Source: Terriglobus saanensis SP1PR4 (GTDB lineage Bacteria; Acidobacteriota; Terriglobia; Terriglobales; Acidobacteriaceae). From it: a DNA stretch of 64,000 nucleotides. The stretch is from positions 1,426,001 to 1,490,000 of the forward strand of contig NC_014963.1 in the NCBI RefSeq assembly GCF_000179915.2. Reading direction: 5' to 3'. A program made the position numbers and the translations under genes. The notes beneath the pieces were generated by a model, which had not been told where the DNA came from, did no database searches, and worked only from the letters and a program-made list of their open reading frames with translations. Below are positions 24,957 to 60,923 of this stretch, in pieces (the stretch's first letter is position 1; each line of letters starts with the position of its first letter).

Positions 24957-24970
24957 GAGGAGAGCCGCAT

Positions 24971-27250: not shown

Positions 27251-27277
27251 GGCCATGCCCACATCACGGAGATCACT

Positions 27278-27592: not shown

Positions 27593-27655
27593 ACGACGGC
27601 GATATTCGTCGACGAACTGATTCAAATATTACGCGTCAGCAGGGATGGGAAGAAC

Positions 27656-28207: not shown

Positions 28208-28220
28208 GCGAGGAAAGATC

Positions 28221-42936: not shown

Positions 42937-43587
42937 ATGCAGTCTTCAACGGACTTCGATCCGAAGATCTTTCTGGCGAGTGCCGGTTTTGGGCGCAAGA
43001 TGGTCACCGTAAAAGGCGGAAGCGTATTCTTTGCCCAGGGGGCGGAAGCTGATTCTGTTTTTTATTTGCAAAAAGGTCGTGCTAAAGTCACCGTCGTTTC
43101 GACTGCCGGGAAAGAAGCCACCATCTCACTTCTGGCCGCAGGCGAATTTATAGGGGAGGAAGCGGTGAGCGCCGTCCCCGGTTTACGCTTATCCACTGCG
43201 ACCGCGATTGGGCCTTGTTCCGCGCTCAAGATCCAGCGCGCTGAGATTCTTCGCGCGATCCATGAGGAGCATACTTTCTCCGACATGTTTTTGACGTTTC
43301 TCCTTGCCCGCAGTATGCGGACACAGGCGGACCTGGTCGATCATCTGTTCAACTCAAGCGAAAAACGTCTCGCAAGGATTCTCCTGCTCATGGCCGAGTT
43401 TGGAAAGCCGGACGATCAAGATAGGCTGATCCCGCACATCACACAGGAAACGCTCGCGGAGATGATAGGAACAACCCGATCGCGAGTGAGTTTCTTTATG
43501 AACCGTTTCCGTAAGTTGGGATTCATCGACTATGACGGCCGGATCACCGTTCGTAAGTCTCTGCTTAATATCGTGCTCCATGATTGA
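42937..43587 (+). CDS. Crp/Fnr-family transcriptional regulator
   Basis: 216 residues. It is a clear paralogue of the regulator at 21598-22353: the same cNMP-fold core (ADSVFYLQKGRAKVTVVS), the same LARSMRTQADLVDHLFNSSE hinge and an almost identical HTH (TQETLAEMIGTTRSRVSFFM, NRFRKLGFIDYDG), but no Lys-rich tail. No Fe-S Cys set. The near-identity of recognition helices suggests overlapping DNA sites. It stands between the OmpA gene and the convergent flippase gene; its targets are unknown. Confidence 0.92.
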   Translation: MQSSTDFDPKIFLASAGFGRKMVTVKGGSVFFAQGAEADSVFYLQKGRAKVTVVSTAGKEATISLLAAGEFIGEEAVSAVPGLRLSTATAIGPCSALKIQRAEILRAIHEEHTFSDMFLTFLLARSMRTQADLVDHLFNSSEKRLARILLLMAEFGKPDDQDRLIPHITQETLAEMIGTTRSRVSFFMNRFRKLGFIDYDGRITVRKSLLNIVLHD

Positions 43588-43805: not shown

Positions 43806-45332
43806 TTATTTGAAATCTAAGAACTGCTGAATCCGAGCCGGAAAGAGATGCAACAACTGTGGTGAGCGCCTGAGCATGGGGCGCAGCAGAGTTTTGGAGA
43901 AGAGTGAGAAGGCTCCGAGGACCAAGATCGCTGCACCGCCGCCGACGCAGACTAGGCGCAGAAAATCAGGCATCGGGGGCAACAACAGCTCGAGGCCTTT
44001 TGAGACCGCTGCCGCAAAGAGAGCGAGGAGGAGACCTGGAGTTGAGGTCTCCATGAGATCTGTCCAACGAATACGAATCTCGCGATGGACCGCCGTTGTG
44101 AGCAGGAAGAAGCGGAAGAGATATAAGCCAAGCACGGTCCAACTAAGCGCCAGCACCGAATACCGGATCGCGATGACATAACCCGCTACCGCAAGGACGG
44201 CGACGATGAGTTGAGCGCCAAAGTCAATCTGCGGCTTTCCACGCGCTATCAGGAGCGGTTCGGAGAGGCTCATCACAGCGTTGACCGCCATGGCGAGTGC
44301 AATAGGACGCATATAAGGCACCGCATTCGCCCACATTTTTCCATACAGTCCAAGGACCACAACGTCGGCTGCCGCTGCAACTGCGGCAAACATGGGCAGG
44401 ATTACGAGCAGTAAAAGCCCAAAGACGGAGGCGTAGACCCTGCGCAGCTTTTCTTCGTCTGTCTGCACGCGGGAGAAGGCTGGGAGAAGGACGCCGAGCA
44501 AGCTGGAGGTGATGGTTTCGGTCGTGTTGCCGAGCGTCGTGAAAGCTCGGCTATACAAGCCGAGAGCGAGCGGTCCTGCGACGCGTCCGACGACCGTGTT
44601 ATCCAGATTGCTGATGCCCCAACGACATACGTTCGCCCCGAAGACACGGATCCCGAAGTGGAGTAACGGAAGATGGTCGGGATGGAAGAGCGGTTTGATC
44701 GAGTGCGGCTGACGGAGAAAGACGAGGACGCTATACAGGAAAGACTGCGTGAGCCAGGCAGCAACGAGACTCCACACCCCGGCACCCATTAAGGCGAGCG
44801 AGAGGCCGACCAAGGGGTATCCGACGACATAGGAGAGGATGGCGATGGCCTGGACCGATCGGGCATCCTGGCGTCGGTTGAGCAAAGCCAGGGCCGTGGT
44901 TCCAAATGCCTGGAGGACAAACAGCAGCGAGCAGACGCGTAACAGGAGCATCAGCTTCGGCTCATGGAAGAAGCGTGAGAGGATGGGCGCTCCGCAGAAG
45001 AGGAGCGTGGTCATCAGTATGCCGAAGGCCATTTGACAGGTGAAGCAGAAGCGGATGTCGCCTTCCGCCAAGTCTTCCTTTTGGAGCAGTGCAGAACTGA
45101 GGCCTACGTTCGAGAGCAGACTTCCAAAACCGAAGACGATCATCGCCACAGCGAGTTCGCCGAAAGGCCTTGGGCCTAGCAGGCGTGAGAGCAAGGTATT
45201 AATTCCAAAAGACAAAACCATCTTAACGACTGAGCCGATGTAGTTCCATCCGAGGGCTCGGCCTGTGGTCGTGGTGAGACTTTCCTGGAGATTGGGCACC
45301 GTGATCCTCTTATAGGCACTGGCGACGTTCAC
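43806..45332 (-). CDS. Polysaccharide/lipid-linked glycan flippase (Wzx/MOP superfamily)
   Basis: 508 residues from a GTG start. 12 to 14 hydrophobic segments are predicted by eye. The N-terminal half has the family look (RALGWNYIGSVVKMVLSFGI, TLLSRLLGPRPFGELAVAM, SNVGLSSALLQKEDL). It flips undecaprenyl-linked oligosaccharide units across the inner membrane. It is the last gene of the leftward arm, 9 bases after the NUDIX gene. Its presence implies that the product of the cluster is a glycan or glycolipid that leaves the cytosol, rather than a soluble small molecule. Confidence 0.9.
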   Translation of the reverse strand: MNVASAYKRITVPNLQESLTTTTGRALGWNYIGSVVKMVLSFGINTLLSRLLGPRPFGELAVAMIVFGFGSLLSNVGLSSALLQKEDLAEGDIRFCFTCQMAFGILMTTLLFCGAPILSRFFHEPKLMLLLRVCSLLFVLQAFGTTALALLNRRQDARSVQAIAILSYVVGYPLVGLSLALMGAGVWSLVAAWLTQSFLYSVLVFLRQPHSIKPLFHPDHLPLLHFGIRVFGANVCRWGISNLDNTVVGRVAGPLALGLYSRAFTTLGNTTETITSSLLGVLLPAFSRVQTDEEKLRRVYASVFGLLLLVILPMFAAVAAAADVVVLGLYGKMWANAVPYMRPIALAMAVNAVMSLSEPLLIARGKPQIDFGAQLIVAVLAVAGYVIAIRYSVLALSWTVLGLYLFRFFLLTTAVHREIRIRWTDLMETSTPGLLLALFAAAVSKGLELLLPPMPDFLRLVCVGGGAAILVLGAFSLFSKTLLRPMLRRSPQLLHLFPARIQQFLDFK

Positions 45333-45341
45333 GGGAACGCT

Positions 45342-45977
45342 TTAATCACAGAGGGTTGGGAGAGTAGGATCCTCTGCGAAGCGGAACAGTACCTCGAGTT
45401 GCGAGTGCGTGACGCGGTCGGTCGAAAGATCGAGCTCGGCGAGGTCCTCTTGACTGAACCACCGCGCCCCACCGGTCTCGGAGGTCTCCTCCGCAAGTGT
45501 GCCGCCCTCGATTTTGCAGAGGATGAAGGCCTTGTAGACATACCAAGGCTGCGGCGGATGAGGATATTTTTTCTTGTCGCAGAGCATCAACAAACGCTCG
45601 GCTCGAACGTGGAGTCCCGTCTCCTCTTCGGTCTCCTTCTCTGCTACTTCAAAAGGAGTGTGGCCGACGTCTGCCCAACCCCCCGGTACGGTCCATCGCC
45701 CTTGGTCGACCTTTTCTTTAACGAGCAGAATCTGTCGCGACTCATTGAACATCACGGCTCGGATGTCGACCTTTGGAGTTTGGTATCCCGTTTCGGAAGC
45801 GAAGACACGGATGATCTTCTCGTAGGGCTCGTCGCTAAGTGACTGCAACAGATCGACGCTCAGTGCTCGCAGTTGTTGATATCGTTCGAGGTCGTACGCG
45901 TTGGTCGCGTAGGCAATCCCGGCCTGGGAGATGGCCTGGATGCGCTGGGCGCAGAGCAGCAATTCGGCGGAGGTCAT
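45342..45977 (-). CDS. NUDIX hydrolase with N-terminal helical domain
   Basis: 211 residues from the ATG at 45977, with AAGGTGA upstream; a start 8 codons earlier is possible. The N-terminal 60 residues match the helical part of ADP-ribose/nucleotide-sugar NUDIX proteins. The NUDIX box is GGWADVGHTPFEVAEKETEE followed by ETGL; the usual Arg of REUXEE is Lys here, while the Glu residues for metal binding remain. It cleaves a nucleoside diphosphate linked to some moiety, perhaps a nucleotide-sugar of this cluster. It sits between the flippase and the beta-helix gene, in the same transcript. Confidence 0.9.
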   Translation of the reverse strand: MTSAELLLCAQRIQAISQAGIAYATNAYDLERYQQLRALSVDLLQSLSDEPYEKIIRVFASETGYQTPKVDIRAVMFNESRQILLVKEKVDQGRWTVPGGWADVGHTPFEVAEKETEEETGLHVRAERLLMLCDKKKYPHPPQPWYVYKAFILCKIEGGTLAEETSETGGARWFSQEDLAELDLSTDRVTHSQLEVLFRFAEDPTLPTLCD

Positions 45978-46092
45978 GGAGCGGTCACCTTGAAGCGGCA
46001 TGGCAATTCCTTGTCATCTGCTGTGGAGTCGGACTGCGGCTTTGCGGAATATAGCATGCGACGGAGAATAGGTGTCCGGCTTCGCGGAGTCT

Positions 46093-47268
46093 TTATGTCT
46101 GGAGGTGTACTCCGAGATGAGTGCCAGCCGCATGCATGGCGCGTTGGGGCAATTGGCTATCGACGTCGGCGATCCAGGCCTCAGCGTCAGCGACAGTTGC
46201 GGGTGTAAGGGCGGCGATAGTCTGGGGAAAAGAACATGTTCGGCGATGTTGCTTGACTTCTGCGAGGAGCCGATCGGAGATCGGCGCAACGACAGGATCG
46301 AACTGAGCGATCTCAACGATGTTGGCGCCATAGTCGCGGATGGTCTCCAGTGCTGCGGCTGCTGTGATGCGGGCGACATAGCGTTGAAGTTCCGCGATGC
46401 GCCATTCCAGGTGAGTTTGTAGCTGAACGATAGCTCCTGCGTAGAGGCGAGCTTCGCAAGGGTCGGCGAAGGGAAGCCGGAGGTGCCGGTACCAGGCCAG
46501 CGTGGTGTGTAGGGTACTGATGAACTGAATGGTTCTGAAGCATTTACGAACGAATCCTGTGAACTCCGTTGCAGGGTTACGCTCATCGCGAAGAGTTGTT
46601 CCGGCGGGAACGATGGATCCGAAGGCGATCACCTGGGGAGCGACGATGCCAGCGTTCCCGCCGATAAAGACTGGTTGCGAACGCTCGAGAAGACCGGACG
46701 CATCGCCGAAGAGGCTGGCGAACTTGTCTCGTTTGGGGCTGAAGTTGAAGTGGATAGCTCCGGAACCGATCTCGGTGTGGTCCATGCGTGAGGTGCCACC
46801 GGTGACGTAGACATCGCAGAAGTTGATCAGGGATCCCGCGACGACGGATGCGGCAAAGAAGGAGTTCTTGAGACCGACTGCGTGGCCAACTTCGACACCC
46901 TCTTCGAGTACGGTGCCGCGACGAATCTCGGCCGCGCCGCGCACCTTTGTGCCATCCAGCAGTGCGCAGTCGGTGAAACTACCCGCGTCGAGCTGGACTT
47001 CGCGACCGACCTGAACATTCGCGAGGGAAGCGATGCCGTACGCGCCGATCATCGAGCCCCTGCCCACGGAGGTAGTCTGGCCTCGAACAATCGCGTTCAT
47101 CAAACATACGCCGGCTTCGATGAAGGGAAGTGTTACTTCGGGGCCGATGAAGACGCGCTGCGGACTGGAGATGACGACACCCTGGTCACGAAGGGCGGCG
47201 ACGCGCTGGCTATTTCCCAGCTCATCCTGGAGTGAGTTCTGCTCGTCCTTAAGCGCATCGAAGTTCAC
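46093..47268 (-). CDS. Left-handed beta-helix (GlmU C-terminal-like) protein without nucleotidyltransferase domain
   Basis: 391 residues from a GTG at 47268, chosen because AGGAAG lies 8 bases upstream (an alternative GTG at 47301 is less likely). Residues about 30-235 carry hexapeptide repeats (VFIGPEVTLP, GSMIGAYGIASLANVQVG, VLEEGVEVGHAVGLKNSFF) and the GlmU-like stretch DHTEIGSGAIHFNFSPKRD. The C-terminal ~150 residues are helical and not typical of GlmU. It may transfer an acyl group to an amino sugar or amino-cyclitol, or act as a sugar-1-phosphate enzyme partner. First gene of the leftward arm. Confidence 0.8.
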   Translation of the reverse strand: MNFDALKDEQNSLQDELGNSQRVAALRDQGVVISSPQRVFIGPEVTLPFIEAGVCLMNAIVRGQTTSVGRGSMIGAYGIASLANVQVGREVQLDAGSFTDCALLDGTKVRGAAEIRRGTVLEEGVEVGHAVGLKNSFFAASVVAGSLINFCDVYVTGGTSRMDHTEIGSGAIHFNFSPKRDKFASLFGDASGLLERSQPVFIGGNAGIVAPQVIAFGSIVPAGTTLRDERNPATEFTGFVRKCFRTIQFISTLHTTLAWYRHLRLPFADPCEARLYAGAIVQLQTHLEWRIAELQRYVARITAAAALETIRDYGANIVEIAQFDPVVAPISDRLLAEVKQHRRTCSFPQTIAALTPATVADAEAWIADVDSQLPQRAMHAAGTHLGVHLQT

Positions 47269-47460
47269 GGACAGTCTTCCTGTGTCGCCTAGAGGCCACA
47301 CTGCAGAAATAGATATTCAAATTGTGTCCCAGCGCATGTTAGCGTTGTCTCGCTCAGAGACAGTGCCGGGAACCAAATTACCACGGACCTCTTGATCGAC
47401 TTTTGACACTTCCGTGAAAGCAAGGGCCAGGTGTACTGCGAAGCTTTTCTTAGGGGGAGC
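47269..47460. promoter_or_regulatory. Divergent promoter region of the cyclitol cluster
   Basis: The 192 bases between the leftward beta-helix gene and the rightward aminotransferase must hold both promoters. An AT-rich patch lies at 47307-47330 (agaaatagatattcaaattg). A TTGACA-like -35 box faces right at 47403-47408, although no good -10 box sits at the ideal distance. Confidence 0.45.
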
Positions 47461-48573
47461 ATGTTCATAAGTCCACGGTATAACTACCCTGCGCAGTTCG
47501 GAGAGAGCATTGACTCCCTGATGTCTGACCTGCGCGCCATGCTGCTTGGCGGGAAGTATATTCTCACCACCGAGGTTCGAGATTTTGAAGAGTCGTTCGC
47601 CGCATACAACGGGGTTGAGTTCGCCCGTGGGGTGAATAGCGGCACCGATGCGCTTGTCATCGCGCTGCTTGCGCTTGGGATTGGGCGTGGCGACGAGGTC
47701 ATCACGCACGCGAACAGCTTCCATGCGACGGCGGCGGCGATCGACCTTGTGGGGGCGACCCCGGTCCTGGTCGACGCGGACGAAGACACGTATCTGATGG
47801 ATGTGACCCAGGTTGCGGACGCCATCACGGAGCGTACGCGCGCCATTATTCCAGTCCATCTCTTTGGAAAGCCAACGCCGATGGGTGAACTGCTCAAGCT
47901 GGCGAAGTCGATGGGCGTCGTGGTGGTGGAGGATGCCGCGCAAGCCCATGGGGCGGTGATCGATGGGCGTCGCGCGGGTTCGTTCGGTGTGGCGGGATGT
48001 TTCAGCTTTCATCCCAGCAAGAACCTGGCGGCTGCGGGCGACGGTGGAGCGATCATCAGCGATGATCCTGAGCTCATGGAGAAGGTCGATCAGTTCCGTG
48101 CGCTCGGACAACGTGCGCAAAACGAGCATGTGGAGGTTGGATTCAACAGTAAGCTGGATGCGATCCAGGCGCGCATCCTCTCCTGCAAGCTGGAGCGGCT
48201 TGATGCCTGGAACAGTGCAAGAGCCTGGGTGGCGGAGAGGTACAGGAGCGGGCTGGCCGGACTTCCGTTGAGCATGCAACGCCATGATCCTGATGAGATA
48301 CATGTCTATCACCTGTTTCAGGTGAGGACGAAGCATCGAGACGCGCTGCTGAAATCTCTAGTGGGGGAAGGCGTTGATGCAGTCATCCGGTATCCGACGC
48401 CCATCCATCTGCAACCTGCTTTTGCGCAATTCGGTTGGAAGCGAGGACAGTTCCCAGTGGCTGAGTCGCTCTCCGAAGAACTGATCTGCCTTCCACTTCG
48501 ACCGGATATGGAGGAGGGCGAGATCGATTATGTGACTTCCAAAGTGCACGCGTTTTATGAGTCTGTTGTGTAA
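47461..48573 (+). CDS. DegT/DnrJ/EryC1/StrS-family PLP aminotransferase
   Basis: 370 residues from the ATG at 47461, with AGGGGGAG upstream. Substrate region NSGTDALVIALLALGIGRGD is followed by EVITHANSFHATAAAIDLVG, the PLP-binding Asp in VVVEDAAQAHGA and the Schiff-base Lys in FSFHPSKNLAAAGDGGA. Enzymes of this type transfer an amino group from Glu or Gln to a keto-sugar or keto-cyclitol. First gene of the rightward arm. Next to a sugar-phosphate cyclase it could install the nitrogen of an aminocyclitol, as ValM/AcbV-like enzymes do. Its exact substrate cannot be told. Confidence 0.94.
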   Translation: MFISPRYNYPAQFGESIDSLMSDLRAMLLGGKYILTTEVRDFEESFAAYNGVEFARGVNSGTDALVIALLALGIGRGDEVITHANSFHATAAAIDLVGATPVLVDADEDTYLMDVTQVADAITERTRAIIPVHLFGKPTPMGELLKLAKSMGVVVVEDAAQAHGAVIDGRRAGSFGVAGCFSFHPSKNLAAAGDGGAIISDDPELMEKVDQFRALGQRAQNEHVEVGFNSKLDAIQARILSCKLERLDAWNSARAWVAERYRSGLAGLPLSMQRHDPDEIHVYHLFQVRTKHRDALLKSLVGEGVDAVIRYPTPIHLQPAFAQFGWKRGQFPVAESLSEELICLPLRPDMEEGEIDYVTSKVHAFYESVV

Positions 48574-48663
48574 GCTCGTCGATGTTTTGTCTTTCGCAAG
48601 AACCATGCAAGAAGCTCTTCAATGCAATCAACATTTAGGTCACTTCACTTGAAAGGCCTCTTC

Positions 48664-49023
48664 ATGATGAAAGCCTCTTTTACTTCTGTCCTTGCTATAC
48701 CGGCCATCGAACGGGGCAATGAGCATGGGGGTCTAGGGCCGATCTCTTTCAGGCGTCTGCTACGAGAGACCGACTTCAAGGCTCCAATCGACTTTGTCGA
48801 TTACACGATTGTGCCTTCGGGGTCAGCTATTGGAATGCATCAGCATGTCGGCAACGAAGAGATGTATTTTGTGGTGTCGGGCGAACCTCTAATGCGTGTG
48901 AATGGTTACGAAGCACGGCTTGCAAAGGGATCGCTTTCGGTAGTGCGGGATGGGGAGTCGCATGAGTTGATCAACGACAGGGGCGGTGACGTTGAGATTC
49001 TTGTCATCCAAGTGCGGGTATAG
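48664..49023 (+). CDS. Single-domain cupin protein
   Basis: 119 residues from the ATG at 48664 (the next ATG at 48667 is also possible). The cupin motifs are present: GMHQHVGNEEMYFVVSGEPL (metal-ligand His, His, Glu) and DGESHELINDRGG (second His). Small cupins act as isomerases, epimerases or dioxygenases, or bind sugars. In this operon an epimerase or isomerase step on the cyclitol or sugar is plausible, but no specific family is recognised. It ends 4 bases before the cyclase start. Confidence 0.85.
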   Translation: MMKASFTSVLAIPAIERGNEHGGLGPISFRRLLRETDFKAPIDFVDYTIVPSGSAIGMHQHVGNEEMYFVVSGEPLMRVNGYEARLAKGSLSVVRDGESHELINDRGGDVEILVIQVRV

Positions 49024-49027
49024 CAAC

Positions 49028-50791
49028 GTGCAGACATCCACTCTGGTGATCGAACAGGCCGCTTCGGGTTGGGTGGCGCACCGTTTTGGAGAGGATCCAG
49101 TCGCGATGAGGGGGCTTGACGCGGATGCCTTACCGCAGGGTCTGATTGAGTTTGCCTCGCACGTCGCGAGACGCCTCGGTCAATCTTCGGCACAATGCAC
49201 GATGGTAGTCACCCATGAGAACTCAGAAGCGAAGCCCACTCGTGGCAGTGCAGGCTTCATCGTACCTCTGACCCGTACGCTAGCCCTCGCCTATCTCGCA
49301 CCAGCAAACTGGGATAAGTTTCTTGTGCTGGAAATGGGTGCGAGGCCGGTGGCAAGCCTCGCCATGCGGCACGATGGCTCGTTGAGGGAAGAGCGTCTTG
49401 CAGGCGCCACGCTCGAAGAACTGATCAGCCTGGTGAAGATGTTGGAAGTCCGGTTCATGCTGGTTCACTCGACGGAGCCGTTTGTAACCACACCGGATTT
49501 TTTTCCGGAGACGTCTGGTCTTCAGATTGAATCGGTGCACAACGCGGGAGCAATTGTTGAAGGTGCGAGGCGGGCTGCCACCCACTTTGAGCGTGGCTCT
49601 GGCGTGTGGCAGGTTGCATCCGGACATACGCGCATGCGGGCGAACCATACGTCGAGTTACGATCTCTACCGTCCCAACCTTGCGACCTTCGATCTCAACG
49701 AGGACACGCTGGAGCGCATCGTTAGCTCCCGTCCAGTCTTCTTCGTCATCGACCAGGTCATTGAGGCGATGCATGGGAGTGCGATTCGGTGCTATGGGCG
49801 AAAGCGTCTGAACATGATCGGCGAGTTTGTCTGTGCTGGGACGGAAGCCGAGAAGACGGTGAAGATGGCGGAGGATATCTGCCGTGCGGCTCTCAGTGCG
49901 GGCCTTCGCCGCGATGGCCTGATCGTTGCTGTGGGCGGTGGTGTAACGCTCGATGTGGCGGGCTTTGCAGCTTCGATTTTGCGCCGAGGGGTTCGCTATG
50001 TCCGTGTTCCCACGACGCTCATTGGTCTGGTCGACGTCTCGGTAGGAGTGAAACAGGCAGTCAACGCCTTCGGAACGAAGAATGTGCTGGGCTCTTTCTA
50101 TCCTCCGCTCGCCTGCGTGCTGGATTATGGGTTTCTGAAGACGCTGCCGGCCTGTCACATCGCGGCGGGATTTTCAGAGGTGATCAAGATGGCGATCCTC
50201 TGCGATGGCCCTCTCTTCGAAGAGATTGAACGTCATGGCCCGACCCTGACCTTCTCTTCTTTTCAAGAACCGAAGGAAGTTGGGATGCGGATTGCCGAGA
50301 CGGCTGAACTGCTCATGATGCAGGAGCTTGCGCCGAATCTGTTTGAAGACGATCTTGCTAGGCGCGTGGACTTCGGCCATACGTTCAGCCCAGTCATCGA
50401 GATTGATAGCGATTTCAGAATAAGCCACGGTGAAGCGGTCGGTCTGGACATGCTCCTCTCGACCGCCATCGCCGCCAATTGCGGTCTCTGCAATTCGGAT
50501 GTGTTGGATCGGTTGGCGCGATTGTTGGATGCGTTGAGCCTGCCTGTCTGGCATGAAGAGATGCCATCGCCCTCGCGGTTAATGATCGCGTTGTCGAAGG
50601 CCCGAGATCATCGTGGCGGAGCGCTCAACCTTGTTGTTCCGCGTTCGGCGGGGTCGGTTGCGTTTCTCCAGGATGTGAGCGTGGAAGAGCTCGTCCGCGC
50701 ATGTAACGATCTTCAGCGATTCGCCATAACAGAAAGGCTAGCCAGTCCAAACCCAATGGAGAGAAGCGATGGTCCAAGCCTTAGCATTTGA
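49028..50791 (+). CDS. Sugar-phosphate cyclase (2-epi-5-epi-valiolone-synthase-like) with novel N-terminal domain
   Basis: 587 residues from the GTG at 49028, four bases after the cupin stop. Residues about 200-570 are a DHQ-synthase-superfamily cyclase: NAD site AVGGGVTLDVAGFAASILRR (about 300-320), VPTTLIGLVDVSVGVK, and zinc ligands Glu384 (GFSEVIKM), His451 (DFGHTFSP) and His467 (ISHGEAVGLDM). The GHTFSP form, in place of GHTFGHA, points to the sedoheptulose-7-phosphate cyclases (EEVS/DDGS type) rather than AroB. Residues 1-190 form an extra domain I do not recognise (TLVIEQAASGWVAHRF, FLVLEMGARPVASL). It should make a C7 cyclitol from sedoheptulose 7-phosphate. The kinase gene overlaps its end. 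Confidence 0.88.
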   Translation: MQTSTLVIEQAASGWVAHRFGEDPVAMRGLDADALPQGLIEFASHVARRLGQSSAQCTMVVTHENSEAKPTRGSAGFIVPLTRTLALAYLAPANWDKFLVLEMGARPVASLAMRHDGSLREERLAGATLEELISLVKMLEVRFMLVHSTEPFVTTPDFFPETSGLQIESVHNAGAIVEGARRAATHFERGSGVWQVASGHTRMRANHTSSYDLYRPNLATFDLNEDTLERIVSSRPVFFVIDQVIEAMHGSAIRCYGRKRLNMIGEFVCAGTEAEKTVKMAEDICRAALSAGLRRDGLIVAVGGGVTLDVAGFAASILRRGVRYVRVPTTLIGLVDVSVGVKQAVNAFGTKNVLGSFYPPLACVLDYGFLKTLPACHIAAGFSEVIKMAILCDGPLFEEIERHGPTLTFSSFQEPKEVGMRIAETAELLMMQELAPNLFEDDLARRVDFGHTFSPVIEIDSDFRISHGEAVGLDMLLSTAIAANCGLCNSDVLDRLARLLDALSLPVWHEEMPSPSRLMIALSKARDHRGGALNLVVPRSAGSVAFLQDVSVEELVRACNDLQRFAITERLASPNPMERSDGPSLSI

Positions 50792-51776
50792 TCTCGGGGG
50801 CACTCACCTGCGCGGCGCCTTGGTGAAGGGAAACAACCTGAGTCGCTCCGCAAGCTACCGTCTCCAGAACTCGGAGCAGGTATCGCGGCATTCTGATGTG
50901 TGGGACGTGATTGTGCGTCACATGCTTCTCTATGAGCGCGCCAGCGTGGAGTTTCTGGCCGCTTCGGATCCGATCGTGGTGTCGTTTCCCGGGCCAGTGC
51001 GGAAAGGCCGCCATATTGTTCAGGCGCCCACCGTGACTGGTGCTGGCGCGGGTCCTCGCGATCTGGCTCTGGAACTGGAACAGAAGACAGGCAGGGGAGT
51101 GCATCTGCTGAACGATGTTTCGGCTGCTGCATGGCATCTGAGTGGTCGGACCGCTGCCGATCGATTCATGGTGGTGACGGTCAGCAGCGGGATAGGTGCC
51201 AAGATTTTTGACCGGTCTCATTTTGCGGGTGTGATGGACGAGCCGATGTATGCGGGAGAGATAGGCCATGTAGTAGTGGATGACCGGCCAGCTGCTCCGA
51301 TGTGCGATTGCGGGGGACGAGGCCACCTGGGAGCGATCGCTTCCGGGCGTGGTATCGAACGCGCGGCCCGTATTCGTGCGCGGGAGTTTCCCCAGGATTT
51401 CTCGCAGTCGATACTCCATGCGCAAGTGGGCGCAGCGACGGAGACTCTTACCAACGAGCAGCACATCGTCCCAGCGGCGCTGGCGGGAGATGACTGGACG
51501 CTGAGGCTGATCCGCGAAAGCACACGACCGCTGGCGCGTGTGCTTCTGGCGAATGTGCTCGGCGTCGGTTTGCAGAAGGTCTTCATCATTGGTGGGTTCG
51601 CCCAGGCCCTGGGCAGCTTGTATCTGCAGATGCTCACAGATCTCATGGGCGAGATGAGCCAGTATGCTGTGCTCGAGGATGCAATTCCGACATTGGTGGA
51701 GGCTGGATATTTGCACGGCGAATGTTGCTTGATGGGATGTGGAGCCTTCCTCCAGGCAAAGGAGCAAAGCCGATGA
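50769..51776 (+). CDS. ROK-family (glucokinase-like) kinase
   Basis: 335 residues. ATP-binding phosphate loop FDLGGTHLRGALVK, catalytic Asp116 in LLNDVSAAAWH, and the ROK signature AGEIGHVVVDD (162-172) are all present. The zinc motif CXCGXXGC reads CDCGGRGH (179-186), with His in place of the third Cys. Glucokinase-like kinases phosphorylate the cyclase product at C7 in validamycin and acarbose biosynthesis, which is the likely role here. It overlaps the cyclase by 23 bases and the next gene by ATGA. Confidence 0.9.
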   Translation: MVQALAFDLGGTHLRGALVKGNNLSRSASYRLQNSEQVSRHSDVWDVIVRHMLLYERASVEFLAASDPIVVSFPGPVRKGRHIVQAPTVTGAGAGPRDLALELEQKTGRGVHLLNDVSAAAWHLSGRTAADRFMVVTVSSGIGAKIFDRSHFAGVMDEPMYAGEIGHVVVDDRPAAPMCDCGGRGHLGAIASGRGIERAARIRAREFPQDFSQSILHAQVGAATETLTNEQHIVPAALAGDDWTLRLIRESTRPLARVLLANVLGVGLQKVFIIGGFAQALGSLYLQMLTDLMGEMSQYAVLEDAIPTLVEAGYLHGECCLMGCGAFLQAKEQSR

Positions 51777-53020
51777 TCTTCACGATTCTGGGAGGCAGTG
51801 CACCGAGTACACCTGTTGTCGTTGAAGCATTGGCCCGCCTTGTTCCGGACGAGATGCTGACGATCCGTTTGGCAGGCCGCCAGCGTGACCGGTTGGAGGC
51901 AGTTGGGCGTGCCTGCCGATTGCTGTCGCAAGGAAGCTGTTTCGACGTGGAGGTCTATGGGCCGGGTGAGTGGCGTGCGGCGATCGAAGGAAGCAATCTC
52001 ATTCTGATCCAAAGCCGGATCGGTAACTATGAGGCGCGCGGCTTCGACGAAGCTTTTCCTATCGAGTTCGGCATACCGGGAGACGAGGGACTGGGACCTG
52101 GAGGGCTTTCGGCTGCGTATCGGACATGGCCCCAGTTGAAAGAGATTTGCTGCAGGATTCAGGCGCATGCGCCGAAGGCACAGACCGTATTGCTCACCTC
52201 GCCAAGCGGTCTGCTGGTTCGCCTTGCGGCGCTTGAGTTTTCCGGTTGGCCCCTGCTCGCAACCTGCGAACTGCCTTACACCACATTGAAGGCACTCTGC
52301 TCGATTGCGGGGGAAGATCCGGACGATATGACTTTCGACTACACCGGGGTGAATCACCTTGGCTATCTTTATAACCTGCATGCGAAGCGGGATTTGCTCG
52401 CTACCTACCAAGAACGGGCTGACGCAAAAAACTTTCCCTCGGCTGCACTGCTCGCTCGGCTCAATGCTTTTCCTTTGAAGTATCTCAGGCTCCACTACGA
52501 GCAGGAAGAGGTTGTGCAGGAACAACGCGACCGAATGGTCCCGCGGGCTCATGAGCTTGGCAAGATTGCTTCTCATGCGCTGGAGTGCTTCCATTTCGGA
52601 GATGAGGCTGTCATCCGCGAAGCGCTGAGCCAAAGGCGAGCGGACTGGTACGAGTTCGCGGTGATTCCGCTGGTCCTCTTCCATTTGAAGAGGGAAGTGA
52701 GGCAACCGATATTTCTCACCTCGGCAGACGATGCAGGGGAGGTGCGGGAGAGAGCGTTTCGCGTACGCAAGAGTGCCCTGGCCTATGTGCCTCCGAAAGC
52801 CCCGGCGACAGATGAGGTGGAGGACCTGGTGAATGCGTTTGCAAGGTATGAGCGCGTCGCGGCCGAAGCCGTTCTAGCAGGAACGGAGGAGGCGCTTTCG
52901 AGCGCGCTGGCACTTCACCCCTGGGTTAAGACAGGGAGCGAGCATGAGCTTGCAAGCATCATTCTTTCGCAGCCTTTCGAGCGCAGGACGAGTGAGGGGG
53001 AAAAGTTATGGCAGAACTGA
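51773..53020 (+). CDS. GH4-like NAD-dependent enzyme
   Basis: 415 residues from the ATG at 51773, overlapping the kinase stop (ATGA). The GH4 outline is visible: TILGGSAPSTP for NAD; SRIGNYEARGFDEAFPIEFG and IPGDEGLGPGGLSAAYR; metal ligands Cys165 (ATCELPY) and His195 (GVNHLGYLYN). The usual sNP motif is TSPSG. GH4 enzymes work by oxidation at C3, elimination and re-reduction, with NAD and Mn. In a biosynthetic operon it may eliminate or epimerise at a cyclitol or sugar rather than hydrolyse a glycoside. An unusual partner for a cyclase cluster. Confidence 0.85.
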   Translation: MIFTILGGSAPSTPVVVEALARLVPDEMLTIRLAGRQRDRLEAVGRACRLLSQGSCFDVEVYGPGEWRAAIEGSNLILIQSRIGNYEARGFDEAFPIEFGIPGDEGLGPGGLSAAYRTWPQLKEICCRIQAHAPKAQTVLLTSPSGLLVRLAALEFSGWPLLATCELPYTTLKALCSIAGEDPDDMTFDYTGVNHLGYLYNLHAKRDLLATYQERADAKNFPSAALLARLNAFPLKYLRLHYEQEEVVQEQRDRMVPRAHELGKIASHALECFHFGDEAVIREALSQRRADWYEFAVIPLVLFHLKREVRQPIFLTSADDAGEVRERAFRVRKSALAYVPPKAPATDEVEDLVNAFARYERVAAEAVLAGTEEALSSALALHPWVKTGSEHELASIILSQPFERRTSEGEKLWQN

Positions 53021-53964
53021 GAGTAGCGATCTTTGGCTGTGGCCGCATGGGGAACGAACGGGCGCGCTGCGTCCAGGAGGCCGGGGCAACCGTGGTCTTT
53101 GTCTACGATCCGGATGCCGAACGCGCGGCGAAGATGGCGCTCGAGTTCGGAGCGGAAGCAATCGCAACGCAGGATGACCTTCCCTGGTCCGATGTTGACG
53201 CAGTCTTCTTTTGCACGCCGCCCCATTGCCGTGAGGCACAGGCACTGGCCGCGATCCGGGCGAAGGTTCCCTTCCTGGCGGAGAAGCCCATTGGAATCTC
53301 GCATGCGGCTTCAGACCGAGTGCTCGCTGCTCTGACAGACGCGCCAGTCGTGAACGCCATTGGCTATATGAATCGATGCCGTGCATCCATCCTGCAGGCG
53401 AAGGCATTGCTCGAGGACTGCCGCTTGCTTGGCATCTCCGCACACTGGGTATGTAGGCAGTACACAGTCCCCTGGTGGCTGGATGAAAGTGCGAGTGGCG
53501 GACCCATGAACGAGCAGGCAACCCATCTCTTCGACCTCTGTCGCTTTCTGGGTGGAGAGGTGGAAGAGGTCACTTCACTGGCGGCGTTGAACGGAAGTCA
53601 TGCGGTTCAGCCTCTTGGATCGGCCTCCGCATTGCGCTTCTCCTCTGGCATTCTAGGAACCATCTTTTACTCATGCGAAAGCTCGGTCAAGGACATTGGC
53701 TTGCACCTTTTTACGGATAAGGGCGGCATAGAGCTTTCAGGCTGGGACTTTCAGATGACGTCGAACATGGTGACGAACACGCTGCCTCTACCCTCGGATG
53801 AAAATGTCTTCCTGACCGAGACGCGAGTCTTTCTGGAAGCCGTTGAGTCCGGCAGCAGAGAGAAGGTTGCATGCGACTGGGAGGAAGCAGCGCGTACTCA
53901 ACTCTTGGTCGATGCGGCACGGCGCTCGATGAGCGAAGAAAGGGAGCTGGAGTTGCAGACATAG
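53008..53964 (+). CDS. Gfo/Idh/MocA-family NAD(P)-dependent oxidoreductase
   Basis: 318 residues, with GAGGGGG just upstream of the ATG, inside the end of the GH4-like gene. Rossmann motif VAIFGCGRMGNERARCVQEA; the EKP motif in FLAEKPIGISH (about 90-100); and the C-terminal domain contains ASGGPMNEQATHLFDLCRFL with the catalytic His. Family members oxidise or reduce sugar and inositol hydroxyls. Here it may oxidise or reduce the cyclitol to set up transamination, as in scyllo-inosamine or aminocyclitol pathways. Cytosolic. Confidence 0.92.
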   Translation: MAELRVAIFGCGRMGNERARCVQEAGATVVFVYDPDAERAAKMALEFGAEAIATQDDLPWSDVDAVFFCTPPHCREAQALAAIRAKVPFLAEKPIGISHAASDRVLAALTDAPVVNAIGYMNRCRASILQAKALLEDCRLLGISAHWVCRQYTVPWWLDESASGGPMNEQATHLFDLCRFLGGEVEEVTSLAALNGSHAVQPLGSASALRFSSGILGTIFYSCESSVKDIGLHLFTDKGGIELSGWDFQMTSNMVTNTLPLPSDENVFLTETRVFLEAVESGSREKVACDWEEAARTQLLVDAARRSMSEERELELQT

Positions 53965-54003
53965 TTCTTCGTGCTTGCATCGCGTTTCTTAGGAGACACA
54001 TCG

Positions 54004-54759
54004 ATGTTCGAATCACATTGCGCGGGATTGGTGATGGCTGGGGGACGTTCCTCCAGGATGCGGCGTATTTGTGCCACGCATAAGAGCCTGCGCACGGTGG
54101 AAGGCGTTCCCCTGATTGAGTGGAATATCTCCTCTCTTCTCTTCCACGGGATAAGAAATATCTTTGTCGCTGTCAATGCCCGGGAGATCGAACTGAGCGA
54201 ATGGATTCGCGGGTACGGAACGGACCTGGCCCATTCGGCGGGGGCGCGGCTTACGACGATCGTGGAAGATGTTCCCCTTGGAACGATCGGTGCGGTCACT
54301 CGCTTGCCGTCGGAAATTGATCCGGTGCTTGTGGTCAATGTCGATAACCTCACCGACTTGCCGCTCGCACGGATGGTCGAATTTCATATCGGGCGCGGTG
54401 CTGCCGCTACGATCGCAACGCACGCCGAGCCATTCAAGATTCCCTTTGGCCGGTTGGAGACAAAGCAGGACGACGTCACTGCCTATGAGGAAAAGCCCGA
54501 TATCTTCGTACAGATCTCAAGCGGCACCTGCGTCTTCTCACGCCGTGCGATCGACTCGATGGCGCTAAAATCCCGAACGGATGTGCCCGACTTAATACGG
54601 ACTCTGATTGCAAGCCGCGAGAGAGTAGCTGCCTTTCGGCATAACAGCCGATGGATTGATGTGAACGACGAGGAAGCTCTTGGGCGCGCCCACGTATTGC
54701 TGGAAGATCGAGGCGACTTGTGGCCCGGAGCTGAGTTCCGCAGGAACGCACATGCATGA
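54004..54759 (+). CDS. Sugar (or cyclitol) phosphate nucleotidyltransferase
   Basis: 251 residues from the ATG at 54004, with TAGGAGAC upstream. Nucleotide-binding loop AGLVMAGGRSSRMR with conserved Lys in HKSLRTVEGVPLIEW; metal Asp in LVVNVDNLTDLP; product-site region FKIPFGRLETK and YEEKPDI, typical of RfbA/RmlA/GCD1-like enzymes. It joins an NTP to a sugar-1-phosphate. In the validamycin pathway ValB activates valienol-1-phosphate in the same way. The GT gene starts inside its last codons. Confidence 0.92.
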   Translation: MFESHCAGLVMAGGRSSRMRRICATHKSLRTVEGVPLIEWNISSLLFHGIRNIFVAVNAREIELSEWIRGYGTDLAHSAGARLTTIVEDVPLGTIGAVTRLPSEIDPVLVVNVDNLTDLPLARMVEFHIGRGAAATIATHAEPFKIPFGRLETKQDDVTAYEEKPDIFVQISSGTCVFSRRAIDSMALKSRTDVPDLIRTLIASRERVAAFRHNSRWIDVNDEEALGRAHVLLEDRGDLWPGAEFRRNAHA

Positions 54760-55993
54760 TCGACGCATCAAAGTGCTCTCGTTGGTTCCTGACCTCGGCC
54801 TCGGCGGAGGCGAAAACCGCGTGCTCAATCTTGCGAGAACGATTGATCGCAGCAAATTCGATCTGACCGTTGGGACCTTCTTCTCACGCGATCCAATCGC
54901 GGAAGCCAAGTGGGGAAGCCTGCATCCCGAGTTTGAGAGTGCGGGCATCGACGTGGTCGATCTGAGGCTGACGCGACCGAAGAAGCGGTTCCAGTCGCGC
55001 CCTCTCCAGGTGGTCAGTACGTTGATCGCTCTGGTGCGCGCGGCGGTTCACCTGCGTCGCTTCATTCGTGAACGAGAGATCGATGTCGTGGACGCTCACA
55101 TGGATGGATCGCTTCTGATCGCGGTCGCGGCTGCGGTCTCTGCACGTGTACCGGTCGTGGTTACGCTTTATCACGTGCAGACCATCCCTCCGAAGCCCCT
55201 GCTCCAGCCCTTTAGGATTCTGTGCCTGCACTTGATCGCTGCGTTGATCACGGATTCACAGGCCCGCGTCCATGACTTCGAAGCGGTAATGCCACGGGTG
55301 CATGCGCCGATCTTCTACATCCCGAATGGTGTTCGCCTGGAACCGCCCAAGAAGACGCGGGAGGAGGTCCTCGCGTTCTTTGACATTCCGTCGAACGCCA
55401 ACACGATCATCGGACAAGTCAGCGGGCTTTCACCCTTCAAAGGGCACCGATTTTTAATTGAGGCCGCCGTCCAGGTGGTGGCCGAAAACGAGAAGATGTA
55501 CATCCTTTGCGCAGGGTTTTCGCGTGGATTTGATGCTCATATTGATGAACTCTGGATACAGGCTAAGGACCTTGGCATTGCCGACCGCGTGCGCATCGCA
55601 TCTTATCCCGGAAGCATCGCGGACGTCTGGCAGATCATCGACGTGCATGTCCATGCGTCCACCTTCGACTCCCTGCCCAACGCAATCATCGAAAGCATGT
55701 CCCTCGGCAAGCCGGCAGTAGTGACGTCGGTCGGAGGCATTCCTGACGTGGTGGAGAACGGAAAGACCGGCATCGTCGTTCCGCCAGGAGATGCGGCTGC
55801 ATTGGCCGAAGCCCTGCTTTGTCTACTCAACGACCCGGAGTTCGCTACGTGTCTCGGCCATGCAGCCTCTCTTCGTTACTTTGAAACCCTCACGCCGGAG
55901 TGCTGCACGCGCGCCGTGGAACGTTGCTTTCTGGAGATCACTTCGACGCCTGCCGAGAAGAAGGCGGCGTTGTTCCGTGAGCCAATCACATGA
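54752..55993 (+). CDS. GT4-family glycosyltransferase
   Basis: 413 residues from the ATG at 54752, overlapping the upstream stop by 8 bases. GT-B fold: N-terminal LVPDLGLGGGENRVLNLART; acceptor domain; the C-terminal donor domain has GQVSGLSPFKGHRFLIEA, then DVHVHASTFDSLPNAIIESM and SLGKPAVVTSVGGIPDVVEN, the EX7E motif region of family 4. It uses a nucleotide-activated sugar or cyclitol and retains anomeric configuration. With the flippase at the other end of the cluster it supports a glycan or glycolipid product. Confidence 0.93.
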   Translation: MHDRRIKVLSLVPDLGLGGGENRVLNLARTIDRSKFDLTVGTFFSRDPIAEAKWGSLHPEFESAGIDVVDLRLTRPKKRFQSRPLQVVSTLIALVRAAVHLRRFIREREIDVVDAHMDGSLLIAVAAAVSARVPVVVTLYHVQTIPPKPLLQPFRILCLHLIAALITDSQARVHDFEAVMPRVHAPIFYIPNGVRLEPPKKTREEVLAFFDIPSNANTIIGQVSGLSPFKGHRFLIEAAVQVVAENEKMYILCAGFSRGFDAHIDELWIQAKDLGIADRVRIASYPGSIADVWQIIDVHVHASTFDSLPNAIIESMSLGKPAVVTSVGGIPDVVENGKTGIVVPPGDAAALAEALLCLLNDPEFATCLGHAASLRYFETLTPECCTRAVERCFLEITSTPAEKKAALFREPIT

Positions 55994-56934
55994 GCTCCGT
56001 GCAGGAGCAAAGCCGAGACATGGTGCTGGTTACCGGAGCTGCGGGCTTCATCGGACGTCATGTCGCGCATGCGCTCACCGAAGCAGGATTCGGCGTGCGG
56101 AAGCTTCTCGAACCGGCCAGTGGTTCGAACGAGGCTCTAAACGCGCTCTCATCCGATGAAGCATACGGCGACATCTGTGATCGTGCACTGCTCGCGCGAC
56201 TCGCCTCGGGAGTAGACATCGTCGTGCATCTCGCGGGGTCTCCCTCGGTGTCCGAATCGTTCGAGAACGCGGCAGAGTGCGCGCGCGTTCATCTCCAGGG
56301 AACGATCTGTGTTCTGGACGCTTGCCGCAAAGCAGGCGTGAGGCGACTGATCTATATGTCCTCTGCCGAGGTGTATGGCAGACCGGAGACAGACTACGTC
56401 GCTGAAACGCATGCCTTGAACGCACGCTCTCCTTACGCCGCGGCAAAGATCGGGGCGGAGGCCATGATGAGCGCATATAGCTCAGCCTTCGCGATGGATG
56501 TGATCATCGTGCGGCCCTTCTCCGTCTACGGACCCGGAGCCTCTCCCCATGCGTTGCTTTGCGAGGCGCTTGCGACTACTGCGCGCGGGGAAGAGGTGAA
56601 GGTCCGCAATCTACGGCCTGTGCGAGATTACATCTTCGTCAGTGATGTGGCCGATGCTGTCGTCAAAGCATGCTCGATCGAACCGGCGGCCCACTTGTTG
56701 GTCTTCAATCTCGGCACCATGCGGGGCACGAGCGTCGCCGATCTCTGCAGACTCGTGCTTGCAGCATTCGATCGTCCGGGACAGGCCATAGAAGAGGGCG
56801 AGCAAAGACCGGGAGCCAGCGAGATCTACCGCCTCGTCTCCGATAACAGGTGTGCCCAGGAAGGACTGGGCTGGACACCTCGGACGTCTTTAGAGCAAGG
56901 TATCCATCAAATGGCCGAGGTATACAAGCGATGA
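55990..56934 (+). CDS. NAD-dependent epimerase/dehydratase (extended SDR)
   Basis: 314 residues, with ATGA overlap with the GT gene. Extended-SDR marks: VLVTGAAGFIGRHVAHALTE; VVHLAGSPSVSES; SSAEVYGRPETDYV; catalytic Tyr/Lys in SPYAAAKIGAEAMM; and RPFSVYGPGASPH. Substrates in this family are nucleotide sugars (UDP-glucose 4-epimerase and dTDP-dehydratase relatives). It may set stereochemistry on the activated sugar used by the adjacent transferase. Confidence 0.92.
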   Translation: MSSVQEQSRDMVLVTGAAGFIGRHVAHALTEAGFGVRKLLEPASGSNEALNALSSDEAYGDICDRALLARLASGVDIVVHLAGSPSVSESFENAAECARVHLQGTICVLDACRKAGVRRLIYMSSAEVYGRPETDYVAETHALNARSPYAAAKIGAEAMMSAYSSAFAMDVIIVRPFSVYGPGASPHALLCEALATTARGEEVKVRNLRPVRDYIFVSDVADAVVKACSIEPAAHLLVFNLGTMRGTSVADLCRLVLAAFDRPGQAIEEGEQRPGASEIYRLVSDNRCAQEGLGWTPRTSLEQGIHQMAEVYKR

Positions 56935-57920
56935 GATATCTGATCACTGGAGCACAGGGATTCGTTGGGCGCTATCTCACGGCAGCAATCCTGGAGCGCG
57001 ATGCACAGGCGCAAGTTCTCGGGCTGGGGCGCTCTCCCCGACTCGATGGCTGCTTCTCCCACGCGCTCTCTGGAGGTGCGCTGGCGAAGTTGCCACAGGA
57101 GATGGATCGGTCGCTCGATCCTCGCTTCTGCTACAGGCAGATAAGCATCCTCGACCAAGATAAGATCTTCGCGGCGCTGGAGGAGTTCAGGCCGGATGTC
57201 ATCTTTCATCTCGCATCAGGTCTGCGCAACGATCCACCTGCCGATCTGATTTCGAACAACATCGAGGGTACAGCCGCCTTGATGTCTGCAGTGGAAGCGA
57301 TCCCAGGAGCAAAGCCCAAGGTGGTACTCGGATCCACCGGGGGAGTTTACGGAAGGATTGATCCCGGCAGCTTTCCCTTGAGCGAATCGTGTCTCTGCGA
57401 TCCGGCCGATATGTATGCGATCACCAAGCTCGCCGCGGAACAGATGGCTCGGTTGTCCGGACGATCGAGTGGGATGCCGGTTGTCGTCGGACGCATCTTC
57501 AACATCGTGGGAGCGGGACAGAGCGAGCGACATGTGTGTGGGAATTTCGCGGCTCGCTTGCTGGCGTTGAAGGCCTCCGGCGGAACTCGACTGGAGGTGG
57601 GGGATGTTGCGGCCACCCGGGATTTTGTGGATGCTCGAGATGTTGCTTCCGCCCTCATCGTCCTCGCTGAGCTTGGGGTTGCCGATCACGTGTACAACAT
57701 CGCTTCGGGCGTGGAGACCTCGGTTGGTGAGGTTTTGCAGAAGCTGATTCGCGTGGTTGGGTTTCAGGGCGAATGGAGTTCTTCGGCGGGGAGCACTGGG
57801 ACGGATAGGGTTCCAAGGCATTGGGCGAAGATGACGAAACTGGAGGAACTAGGATTCGTTCCGCGGCACTCCCTTGATGCGAGTCTGACGGATTTAGTGC
57901 GGTATTACCAGATGCGTTAG
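56931..57920 (+). CDS. NAD-dependent epimerase/dehydratase, GDP-mannose 4,6-dehydratase-like
   Basis: 329 residues from the ATG at 56931 (ATGA overlap with the preceding gene). Extended SDR with ITGAQGFVGRYLTAAIL; FHLASGLRNDPPAD; GSTGGVYGRIDPG; active Tyr/Lys in DMYAITKLAAEQMA; and a late RDFVDARDVASAL. It is related to GDP-mannose dehydratase/reductase (Rmd) proteins that make GDP-deoxysugars. It differs clearly in sequence from the SDR just before it, so this is not a recent duplication. Last gene of the rightward arm; the kinase gene begins 49 bases later. Confidence 0.92.
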   Translation: MRYLITGAQGFVGRYLTAAILERDAQAQVLGLGRSPRLDGCFSHALSGGALAKLPQEMDRSLDPRFCYRQISILDQDKIFAALEEFRPDVIFHLASGLRNDPPADLISNNIEGTAALMSAVEAIPGAKPKVVLGSTGGVYGRIDPGSFPLSESCLCDPADMYAITKLAAEQMARLSGRSSGMPVVVGRIFNIVGAGQSERHVCGNFAARLLALKASGGTRLEVGDVAATRDFVDARDVASALIVLAELGVADHVYNIASGVETSVGEVLQKLIRVVGFQGEWSSSAGSTGTDRVPRHWAKMTKLEELGFVPRHSLDASLTDLVRYYQMR

Positions 57921-60920: not shown

Positions 60921-60923
60921 GGC

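Follow-up and report, generated by a model that had tools for sequence, protein, structure and literature searches.

A rare Terriglobus saanensis gene cluster with a predicted sedoheptulose-7-phosphate cyclase and a putative aminocyclitol pathway

Organization of the locus and identity of its cyclase

Positions 43806 to 57920 of a 64,000-nucleotide stretch of the Terriglobus saanensis SP1PR4 genome (NC_014963.1, positions 1,426,001 to 1,490,000; this whole stretch is hereafter called the window) carry a gene cluster for what is probably a C7-aminocyclitol pathway. The host genome is a single contig of 5.1 Mb. As placed and named in a preliminary description made from the sequence, the cluster consists of two divergent operons, and all of its open reading frames (ORFs) and protein families were confirmed; an N-terminal extension of the cyclase had been overlooked there. 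The leftward operon encodes a flippase, a NUDIX hydrolase, and a beta-helix protein. The rightward operon encodes a DegT aminotransferase, a cupin, the cyclase, a ROK-family kinase, a GH4-like enzyme, a Gfo/Idh/MocA oxidoreductase, a sugar-1-phosphate nucleotidyltransferase (NTase), a GT4 glycosyltransferase, and two extended short-chain dehydrogenases/reductases (SDR1 and SDR2). With likely start codons chosen by Shine-Dalgarno-like sequences, the genes from the cyclase through SDR2, described as mostly overlapping, did so at six of seven junctions (cyclase/ROK, 23 nt; ROK/GH4, 4 nt; GH4/Gfo, 13 nt; NTase/GT4, 8 nt; GT4/SDR1, 4 nt; SDR1/SDR2, 4 nt); the sole spaced junction was Gfo/NTase (39 nt). 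The G+C content of the cluster was 57-59%, mildly different from the value of about 54-55% further left. A promoter and terminator scan yielded fewer sites than were found in shuffled sequences and was uninformative.

The cyclase ORF (48986-50791, plus strand; likely start GTG at 49028) is made up of two parts, the N-terminal extension and the cyclase domain (49701-50791). ORF residues ~245-600 matched ValA (4p53) with an E value of 3e-57 and desmethyl-4-deoxygadusol synthase (DDGS) with an E value of 4e-48, and all 3-dehydroquinate (DHQ) synthases gave weaker matches. The AlphaFold (AF2) model of the domain was of high confidence and showed a target-normalised TM score of 0.94 against ValA; the Foldseek matches listed for it all had the cyclase fold. 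The metal ligands E398, H465, and H481 were invariant in 28 relatives. The motif DFGHTFSP resembles DFGHSFSP of ValA, compared with YGHTWSP in DDGS and GHTFGHAIE in DHQ synthases; at the motif level, the comparison of 2-epi-5-epi-valiolone synthase (EEVS) with other sedoheptulose-7-phosphate cyclases covered GHTFSP versus GHTWSP. In the phylogenetic tree, the window cyclase was placed among the sedoheptulose-7-phosphate cyclases, away from the AroB of its own genome, and formed a clade with the cyclases of loci L016, L017, and L018. As judged from the sequence, the domain is thus, at the family level, an EEVS-type sedoheptulose-7-phosphate cyclase, as had been proposed. Its product is predicted to be 2-epi-5-epi-valiolone or a close isomer, the exact stereochemistry being inferred.

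Two cyclase paralogues are encoded elsewhere in the genome, namely AroB at 735144, in a housekeeping neighbourhood, and another at 1769286, in a separate sugar locus. With this separate AroB, aromatic biosynthesis does not depend on the window cyclase. The reading of the window gene as a second aroB was rejected on the better match to ValA, the position in the tree, and the separate housekeeping copy; as far as the sequence tells, AroB activity is not expected of it. The other paralogue (G000:C1:1769286-1769888; L015:5085-6188) adjoins genes for an RfbF-like nucleotidyltransferase, a DegT protein, and a thiamine-diphosphate-enzyme-like protein.

The extension of ~220 residues fused to the cyclase (49028-49700) is a new feature. 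Its base composition was coding-like and it was homologous to the extension found in L016 (28-31% identity, E 1e-11), and no match to it was obtained in Pfam or the PDB. In L018, the region at the same position (L018:8978-10000, plus strand), the N-terminal part of a 694-amino-acid cyclase protein, proved to be a ROK homologue over its whole length (hmmsearch E 4.8e-8 versus 0.45 for the best decoy; hhalign score 47 versus at most 22 for shuffled sequences). This ROK domain is degenerate and lacks the usual ND catalytic motif, and an intact ROK kinase gene adjoins the fused cyclase. L017, in the same cyclase clade, has a cyclase without the extension. In the full-length AlphaFold model the extension was of low confidence, as was the L018 model (pLDDT 35). 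It is hypothesized that the window extension descends from a ROK domain that has since decayed and that formerly docked on the adjacent ROK kinase. It is put no more strongly because the extension itself showed no significant similarity to ROK proteins, which counts against this origin. The fused domain may dock or regulate the neighbouring kinase, the ROK homologue being clear in one relative (L018).

Enzymes encoded around the cyclase

The ROK-family kinase (50769-51776, plus strand; PF00480, E 1e-23) is a predicted cyclitol 7-kinase. Its DxGGT phosphate motif (AFDLGGT) and its catalytic Asp (in LLNDVSAA) are both intact, and a ROK gene is adjacent to the cyclase gene in the window, L016, L017, L018, L029, L030, L059, L062, and G319. 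A Cupin_2 protein (ORF 48622-49023, plus strand; likely start 48664/48667; PF07883, E 9e-11) is encoded directly upstream of the cyclase here and in L016, L017, L018, L029, and L062.

The GH4-like NAD/metal enzyme (ORF 51722-53020, plus strand; likely start 51773; PF02056, E 2e-14) is the sole GH4 protein of the genome and resembles 6-phospho-beta-glucosidases (E 4e-29). Alignments showed that the NAD loop, the metal Cys/His, and the Tyr of the family are all kept. It shares with the 6-phospho-glucosidases of the BglT/GlvA family the Gly-rich NAD loop, the metal-binding Cys and His, and the catalytic Tyr, and a phosphorylated substrate is expected in both cases. However, a branch with a support of 100/99 set eight GH4-like proteins of cyclitol clusters apart from canonical GH4. 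All eight keep the metal Cys (as CELP), the N-H pair, and the Tyr; this separate clade has CELP and not CN-P, has D-E and not Q-E-T before GPGG, carries KY ahead of the Tyr helix in most members, and stands in an anabolic cyclitol operon. The divergence of the clade argues for a reaction other than 6-phospho-glycoside hydrolysis. GH4 enzymes act on 6-phospho-sugars in a metal-dependent manner: the substrate is transiently oxidised at C3 by NAD+, a proton is abstracted at C2, and elimination follows. Such chemistry, with the phosphate of the substrate on the exocyclic carbon, suits a 7-phospho-cyclitol, on which an enzyme of this type could supply both epimerisation and dehydration. In acarbose biosynthesis, epimerisation is carried out by AcbO and dehydration by AcbL (PMC9200736).

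The nearest solved structures to the DegT/DnrJ/EryC1 aminotransferase (ORF 47431-48573, plus strand; likely start 47461; PF01041, E 5e-109) were glutamine-scyllo-inositol transaminase, a DesV-type transaminase (2oga), and QdtB; NtdA was also among the PDB matches. It was 54-64% identical to the DegT proteins of L016, L017, G648 (56%), and L030 (58%). The Gfo/Idh/MocA oxidoreductase (53008-53964, plus strand; PF01408, E 1e-16) is inositol dehydrogenase-like and showed 41-48% identity to its counterparts in L016, L017, L030 (43%), and G648.

The PDB matches of the NTase (ORF 53971-54759, plus strand; likely start 54004; PF00483, E 1e-16) were mannose-1-phosphate guanylyltransferases, and its counterparts showed 43-51% identity in L016, L017, and G648 and 39% in L062. 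For the GT4 glycosyltransferase (ORF 54680-55993, plus strand; likely start 54752; PF13692, E 4e-27), the identity was 36-37% in L016, L029, L062, and G648. SDR1 (55990-56934, plus strand; PF01370, E 3e-52) belongs to the 4,6-dehydratase/epimerase family and contains an SSAEVYG motif, that is, SSAE in place of the T-D/S-E of 4,6-dehydratases; orthologues with the same motif occur in L016 and L062, and an orthologue also in G648. The closest solved structure to SDR2 (ORF 56850-57920, plus strand; likely start 56931) was GDP-4-keto-6-deoxymannose reductase (PDB match, E 6e-30).

In the leftward operon, the left-handed beta-helix protein (46093-47301, minus strand), of uncertain function, is related to the acetyltransferase domain of GlmU (GlmU models, E 8e-18, residues 29-240; PDB GlmU, E 1e-8). 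A 40% identical orthologue lies within the G648 cluster, none was detected in 18 other genomes of the genus, and a plasmid search gave matches of the GlmU type only. The NUDIX hydrolase (45342-46001, minus strand) has a Nudix_N domain (PF12535, E 5e-20; PF00293, E 7e-17), of which a remnant is present beside the G648 cluster; other NUDIX genes precede the NTase gene in L016 and L017. The last gene encodes a Wzx/MOP-type flippase (Polysacc_synt_3; 43806-45332, minus strand; PF13440, E 3.7e-71).

Distribution and exchange of the gene set

A profile scan of genome contigs gave matches, and a single-protein scan gave none. At the level of the window protein, the cyclase was present in none of the 18 other genomes of the genus, in 2 of 398 sampled genomes of the family, and in 2 of 396 sampled genomes of the phylum, the window genome being counted each time. 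Two loci from metagenome-assembled genomes (MAGs) of Acidobacteriaceae, L016 and L017, were collinear with the window in the order DegT-cupin-cyclase-ROK-(GH4)-Gfo-NUDIX-NTase-(SDR1)-SDR2. Another MAG of the same family, G648, which was obtained in the family search, contained 10 of the 13 genes of the T. saanensis cluster and the NUDIX remnant within 18 kb; its own cluster includes genes for GT4, NTase, cyclase, SDR2, SDR1, a methyltransferase, the beta-helix protein, Gfo/Idh, DegT, the GH4-like enzyme, and ROK (44%). Among 397 genomes of the order, SDR2 was found at E<1e-45 in two (the window genome and G648), in both cases in the cyclase cluster, and the G648 copy directly adjoins the cyclase gene. 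The gene order looked for in other Acidobacteriota was thus found, and the set is conserved together in at least these relatives.

More distant genomes carried parts of the set. Methylobacterium tarhaniae (L062) has cupin-cyclase-ROK-GH4 together with GT4 and NTase-SDR1-SDR2, without DegT and Gfo; Ca. Burkholderia verschuerenii (L030) has cyclase-ROK-DegT-GH4-Gfo-HAD-cupin-GNAT; and G319 and L059 have cyclase-ROK-GH4. The set can be divided into three modules, A (cyclase, ROK, and GH4, usually with the cupin), B (DegT and Gfo), and C (NTase, SDR1, SDR2, and GT4). L030 contains A and B (with HAD and GNAT), L062 contains A and C, and the window and G648 contain all three. The flippase and the cupin are the least conserved parts.

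The ROK kinase of G648 grouped with those of the window, L016, and L017 (support 100/100), whereas the G648 cyclase grouped with those of G319, L059, and Methylobacterium (100/99). The same downstream set therefore works with either of two cyclase lineages, an argument that both make a common product. In G648 (G648:C139; L125), an apparent displacement of the cyclase gene inside the cluster is accompanied by an extra methyltransferase gene and a broken NUDIX gene. The recurrence of the same families together in other genomes led to the rejection of a chance assembly of neighbours. On this comparison of sequences, the gene set is real, co-inherited, and rare, and it appears to be horizontally shuffled; this co-inheritance and the assignment of the sedoheptulose-7-phosphate cyclase are the most secure points of the analysis.

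A symbiotic plasmid of Sinorhizobium (NZ_CP023065.1; L126:7421-11932) carries genes for a tagatose-6-phosphate kinase, a cupin, a DegT protein (52% identical to that of the window), a HAD protein, and a DeoR protein. No annotated cyclase lies nearby, and the set is possibly a related aminocyclitol or aminosugar operon.

Predicted pathway and alternative products

The cluster had been compared mainly with those of validamycin and acarbose. Its assignment to cyclitol biosynthesis held, whereas a kirkamide-type core (cyclase-ROK-DegT-GH4-Gfo, as in L030) turned out to be the closer parallel. Kirkamide is a GlcNAc-like C7 aminocyclitol of leaf-nodule Burkholderia, and cyclitol genes are common to Psychotria symbionts (PMC8599487). 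L030, which we infer from its gene content to be the kirkamide cluster, likewise has the EEVS, ROK, DegT, GH4-like, Gfo/Idh, and cupin genes in one operon. It ends in a HAD phosphatase and a GNAT acetyltransferase, from which a free N-acetyl aminocyclitol is expected; the window has instead the NTase, two SDRs, GT4, NUDIX hydrolase, beta-helix protein, and flippase, in addition to the fused cyclase domain. Neither a HAD phosphatase nor a GNAT protein was found in the window cluster; that the GlmU-like beta-helix protein could stand in for them is uncertain.

With validamycin and acarbose the window shares an EEVS-type cyclase, a cyclitol 7-kinase, a nucleotidyltransferase, a glycosyltransferase, and an aminotransferase. 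On the other hand, it contains the GH4-like and Gfo/Idh enzymes, and equivalents of AcbL, AcbN, and AcbU were not recognised. A GT20 pseudoglycosyltransferase (PF00982) was absent from the whole genome, AcbS-type pseudoglycosyltransferases not being searched separately, and no VOC domain, as in the 2-epimerases ValD and AcbO, was found among the cluster genes, to which that search was confined. These absences agree with the preliminary description, as does that of a secondary-metabolite exporter among the cluster genes, the flippase excepted. A validamycin-type pathway with a pseudoglycosyltransferase was rejected on the lack of GT20 in the genome.

The cluster probably encodes a modular, horizontally shuffled C7-aminocyclitol pathway, with a product that is activated by attachment of a nucleotide and then transferred by an ordinary GT4 enzyme. 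In module A, the cyclase would close sedoheptulose 7-phosphate to the valiolone product, the ROK kinase would phosphorylate the cyclitol at C7, by analogy with ValC and AcbM, and the GH4-like enzyme may epimerise and/or dehydrate the ring of the 7-phospho-cyclitol. These would be the tasks of AcbO/ValD and AcbL, equivalents of which are missing from the cluster. In the kanosamine pathway, Gfo/Idh oxidation by NtdC is followed by DegT transamination of the sugar phosphate by NtdA. In module B, Gfo/Idh would similarly oxidise a ring hydroxyl and DegT would transaminate it to give an aminocyclitol phosphate, as their families suggest; unlike the NtdC/NtdA/NtdB system, the substrate would be carbocyclic, and the window cluster lacks a phosphatase resembling NtdB. 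Module C, with the NUDIX hydrolase and the GlmU-like beta-helix protein, would make a nucleotide-linked cyclitol donor, probably GDP-linked, which would be adjusted while nucleotide-bound and then moved by GT4 to an acceptor; in this strain the product may be exported by the flippase. GDP-valienol is what the known cyclitol nucleotidyltransferases, ValB/VldB and AcbR, produce (PMC9200736), and a GDP-linked aminocyclitol is plausible because the acarbose and validamycin pathways use GDP-valienol and the window NTase and SDR2 resemble GDP-sugar enzymes. Least secure are the order of the steps, the nucleotide, the acceptor, what the flippase does, and what kind of domain is fused to the cyclase.

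Several observations weigh against this pathway. L016 has no GH4-like gene. An AcbU-like kinase or a mutase for 1-phosphorylation, which an NDP-cyclitol needs, was not recognised. Unlike ValB and AcbR, which resemble glucose-1-phosphate adenylyltransferases (PMC9200736), the window NTase is mannose-1-phosphate guanylyltransferase-like. N-acetylation by the beta-helix protein is uncertain because what we take to be the catalytic His of GlmU is not found at the aligned position. Moreover, SDR1 and SDR2 with the NTase could equally make an ordinary NDP-deoxysugar.

This last point leads to an alternative that we regard as unlikely. The cyclase, ROK, GH4-like, Gfo, and DegT proteins would make a free aminocyclitol, the NTase, SDR1, and SDR2 would make an NDP-6-deoxyhexose, and GT4 would join them to give a soluble pseudodisaccharide similar to streptol glucoside, a glucosylated C7 cyclitol that does exist (PMC8599487, PMC10131216). 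The nearest relatives of the NTase and SDR2 and the family of SDR1 suit such a route, and a conserved flippase or polymerase is lacking in the relatives. However, the near confinement of the SDR2 subfamily to cyclase-bearing genomes (both copies beside a cyclase) fits a cyclitol substrate better, and the SSAE motif sets SDR1 apart from the 4,6-dehydratases.

Still less probable is a surface polymer, as had been suggested from the flippase, in which the cyclitol would form part of a lipid-linked repeat unit that Wzx flips before polymerisation. That gene is indeed present and divergently transcribed beside the cluster, and the L016 cluster adjoins further glycosyltransferases and a polysaccharide-deacetylase-like gene. 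Yet within the retrieved DNA of the related clusters examined no Wzx was found, the best matches in the relatives' genomes (22-27% identity) being outside the retrieved loci, and the window cluster has no polymerase (Wzy), priming transferase, or chain-length gene, GT4 being its only glycosyltransferase. Because the flippase is not conserved, the step from it to a lipid-linked glycan or surface polymer is weak, and such a polymer is one option only; the product may nevertheless be a glycan, because a similar GT4 recurs and L016 has the additional genes mentioned above. A reading of the cyclase as an isozyme of DHQ synthase, or as a different enzyme using 3-deoxy-D-arabino-heptulosonate 7-phosphate, with neighbours making an unrelated polysaccharide sugar, is highly improbable: Pfam and NCBIfam label it DHQ_synthase, but ValA and DDGS score far above DHQ synthases, the tree and the genome's own AroB disagree with such an enzyme, and the ROK neighbour is that of cyclitol clusters.

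To return to the nucleotide-activated product, a more specific form of the proposal is offered tentatively: non-actinomycete bacteria may activate an amino-C7-cyclitol with a nucleotide, and this carbocyclic, GlcNAc-like donor would be placed on an acceptor by GT4, so that a carbasugar would become part of a glycan or glycoside without a pseudoglycosyltransferase, with a repurposed GH4 enzyme replacing the epimerase and the dehydratase and with the cyclase tethered to the kinase through a fused dead ROK domain. If this is true, C7-cyclitol biosynthesis also takes the form of a modular pathway that can be transferred and that occurs in Acidobacteriota, in Methylobacterium, and in other phyla, and the GH4-like clade acquires a new predicted function as an NAD-dependent epimerase or dehydratase on 7-phospho-cyclitols. 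It would also provide a route to carbasugar donors for common glycosyltransferases; the textbook pathways to acarbose and validamycin do not combine an activated aminocyclitol with an ordinary glycosyltransferase. Compounds of this kind, such as acarbose and kirkamide, are typical glycosidase inhibitors, and the gene set would be a lead for inhibitors and for glycan tagging with non-hydrolysable sugar mimics. A search of the open literature for valiolone and Acidobacteria returned only a paper on the Ebo operon (PMC5133447), which concerns a different cyclase lineage; the lack of other papers there argues weakly for novelty.

The DNA immediately downstream (57969-61556) encodes a Reg_prop/Y_Y_Y hybrid sensor kinase and a LuxR-type response regulator, which are candidate regulators of the cluster; no close relative of the kinase was found at E<1e-150 in the 18 other genomes of the genus. 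Two Crp-type regulators of the window, at 42937-43587 and ~21700-22338 (minus strand), are 70% identical paralogues within one genome, and a third copy (83%) lies at G000:C1:3583662 in the same genome, Crp being multi-copy in the genus. The flanking genes cannot date the insertion of the cluster, because Crp is present in several copies and, at the threshold just given, the genomes of the genus yielded no close relative of the sensor kinase. Further to the left, 37921-40788 encodes a 955-amino-acid protein that combines six Ig-like (Big_5) repeats with an ice-binding-like domain at its C-terminus. At 24039-29687, a multihaem cytochrome with paired CXXCH motifs, a 784-amino-acid ORF, and a cytochrome b-cytochrome c fusion possibly form an alternative respiratory complex.

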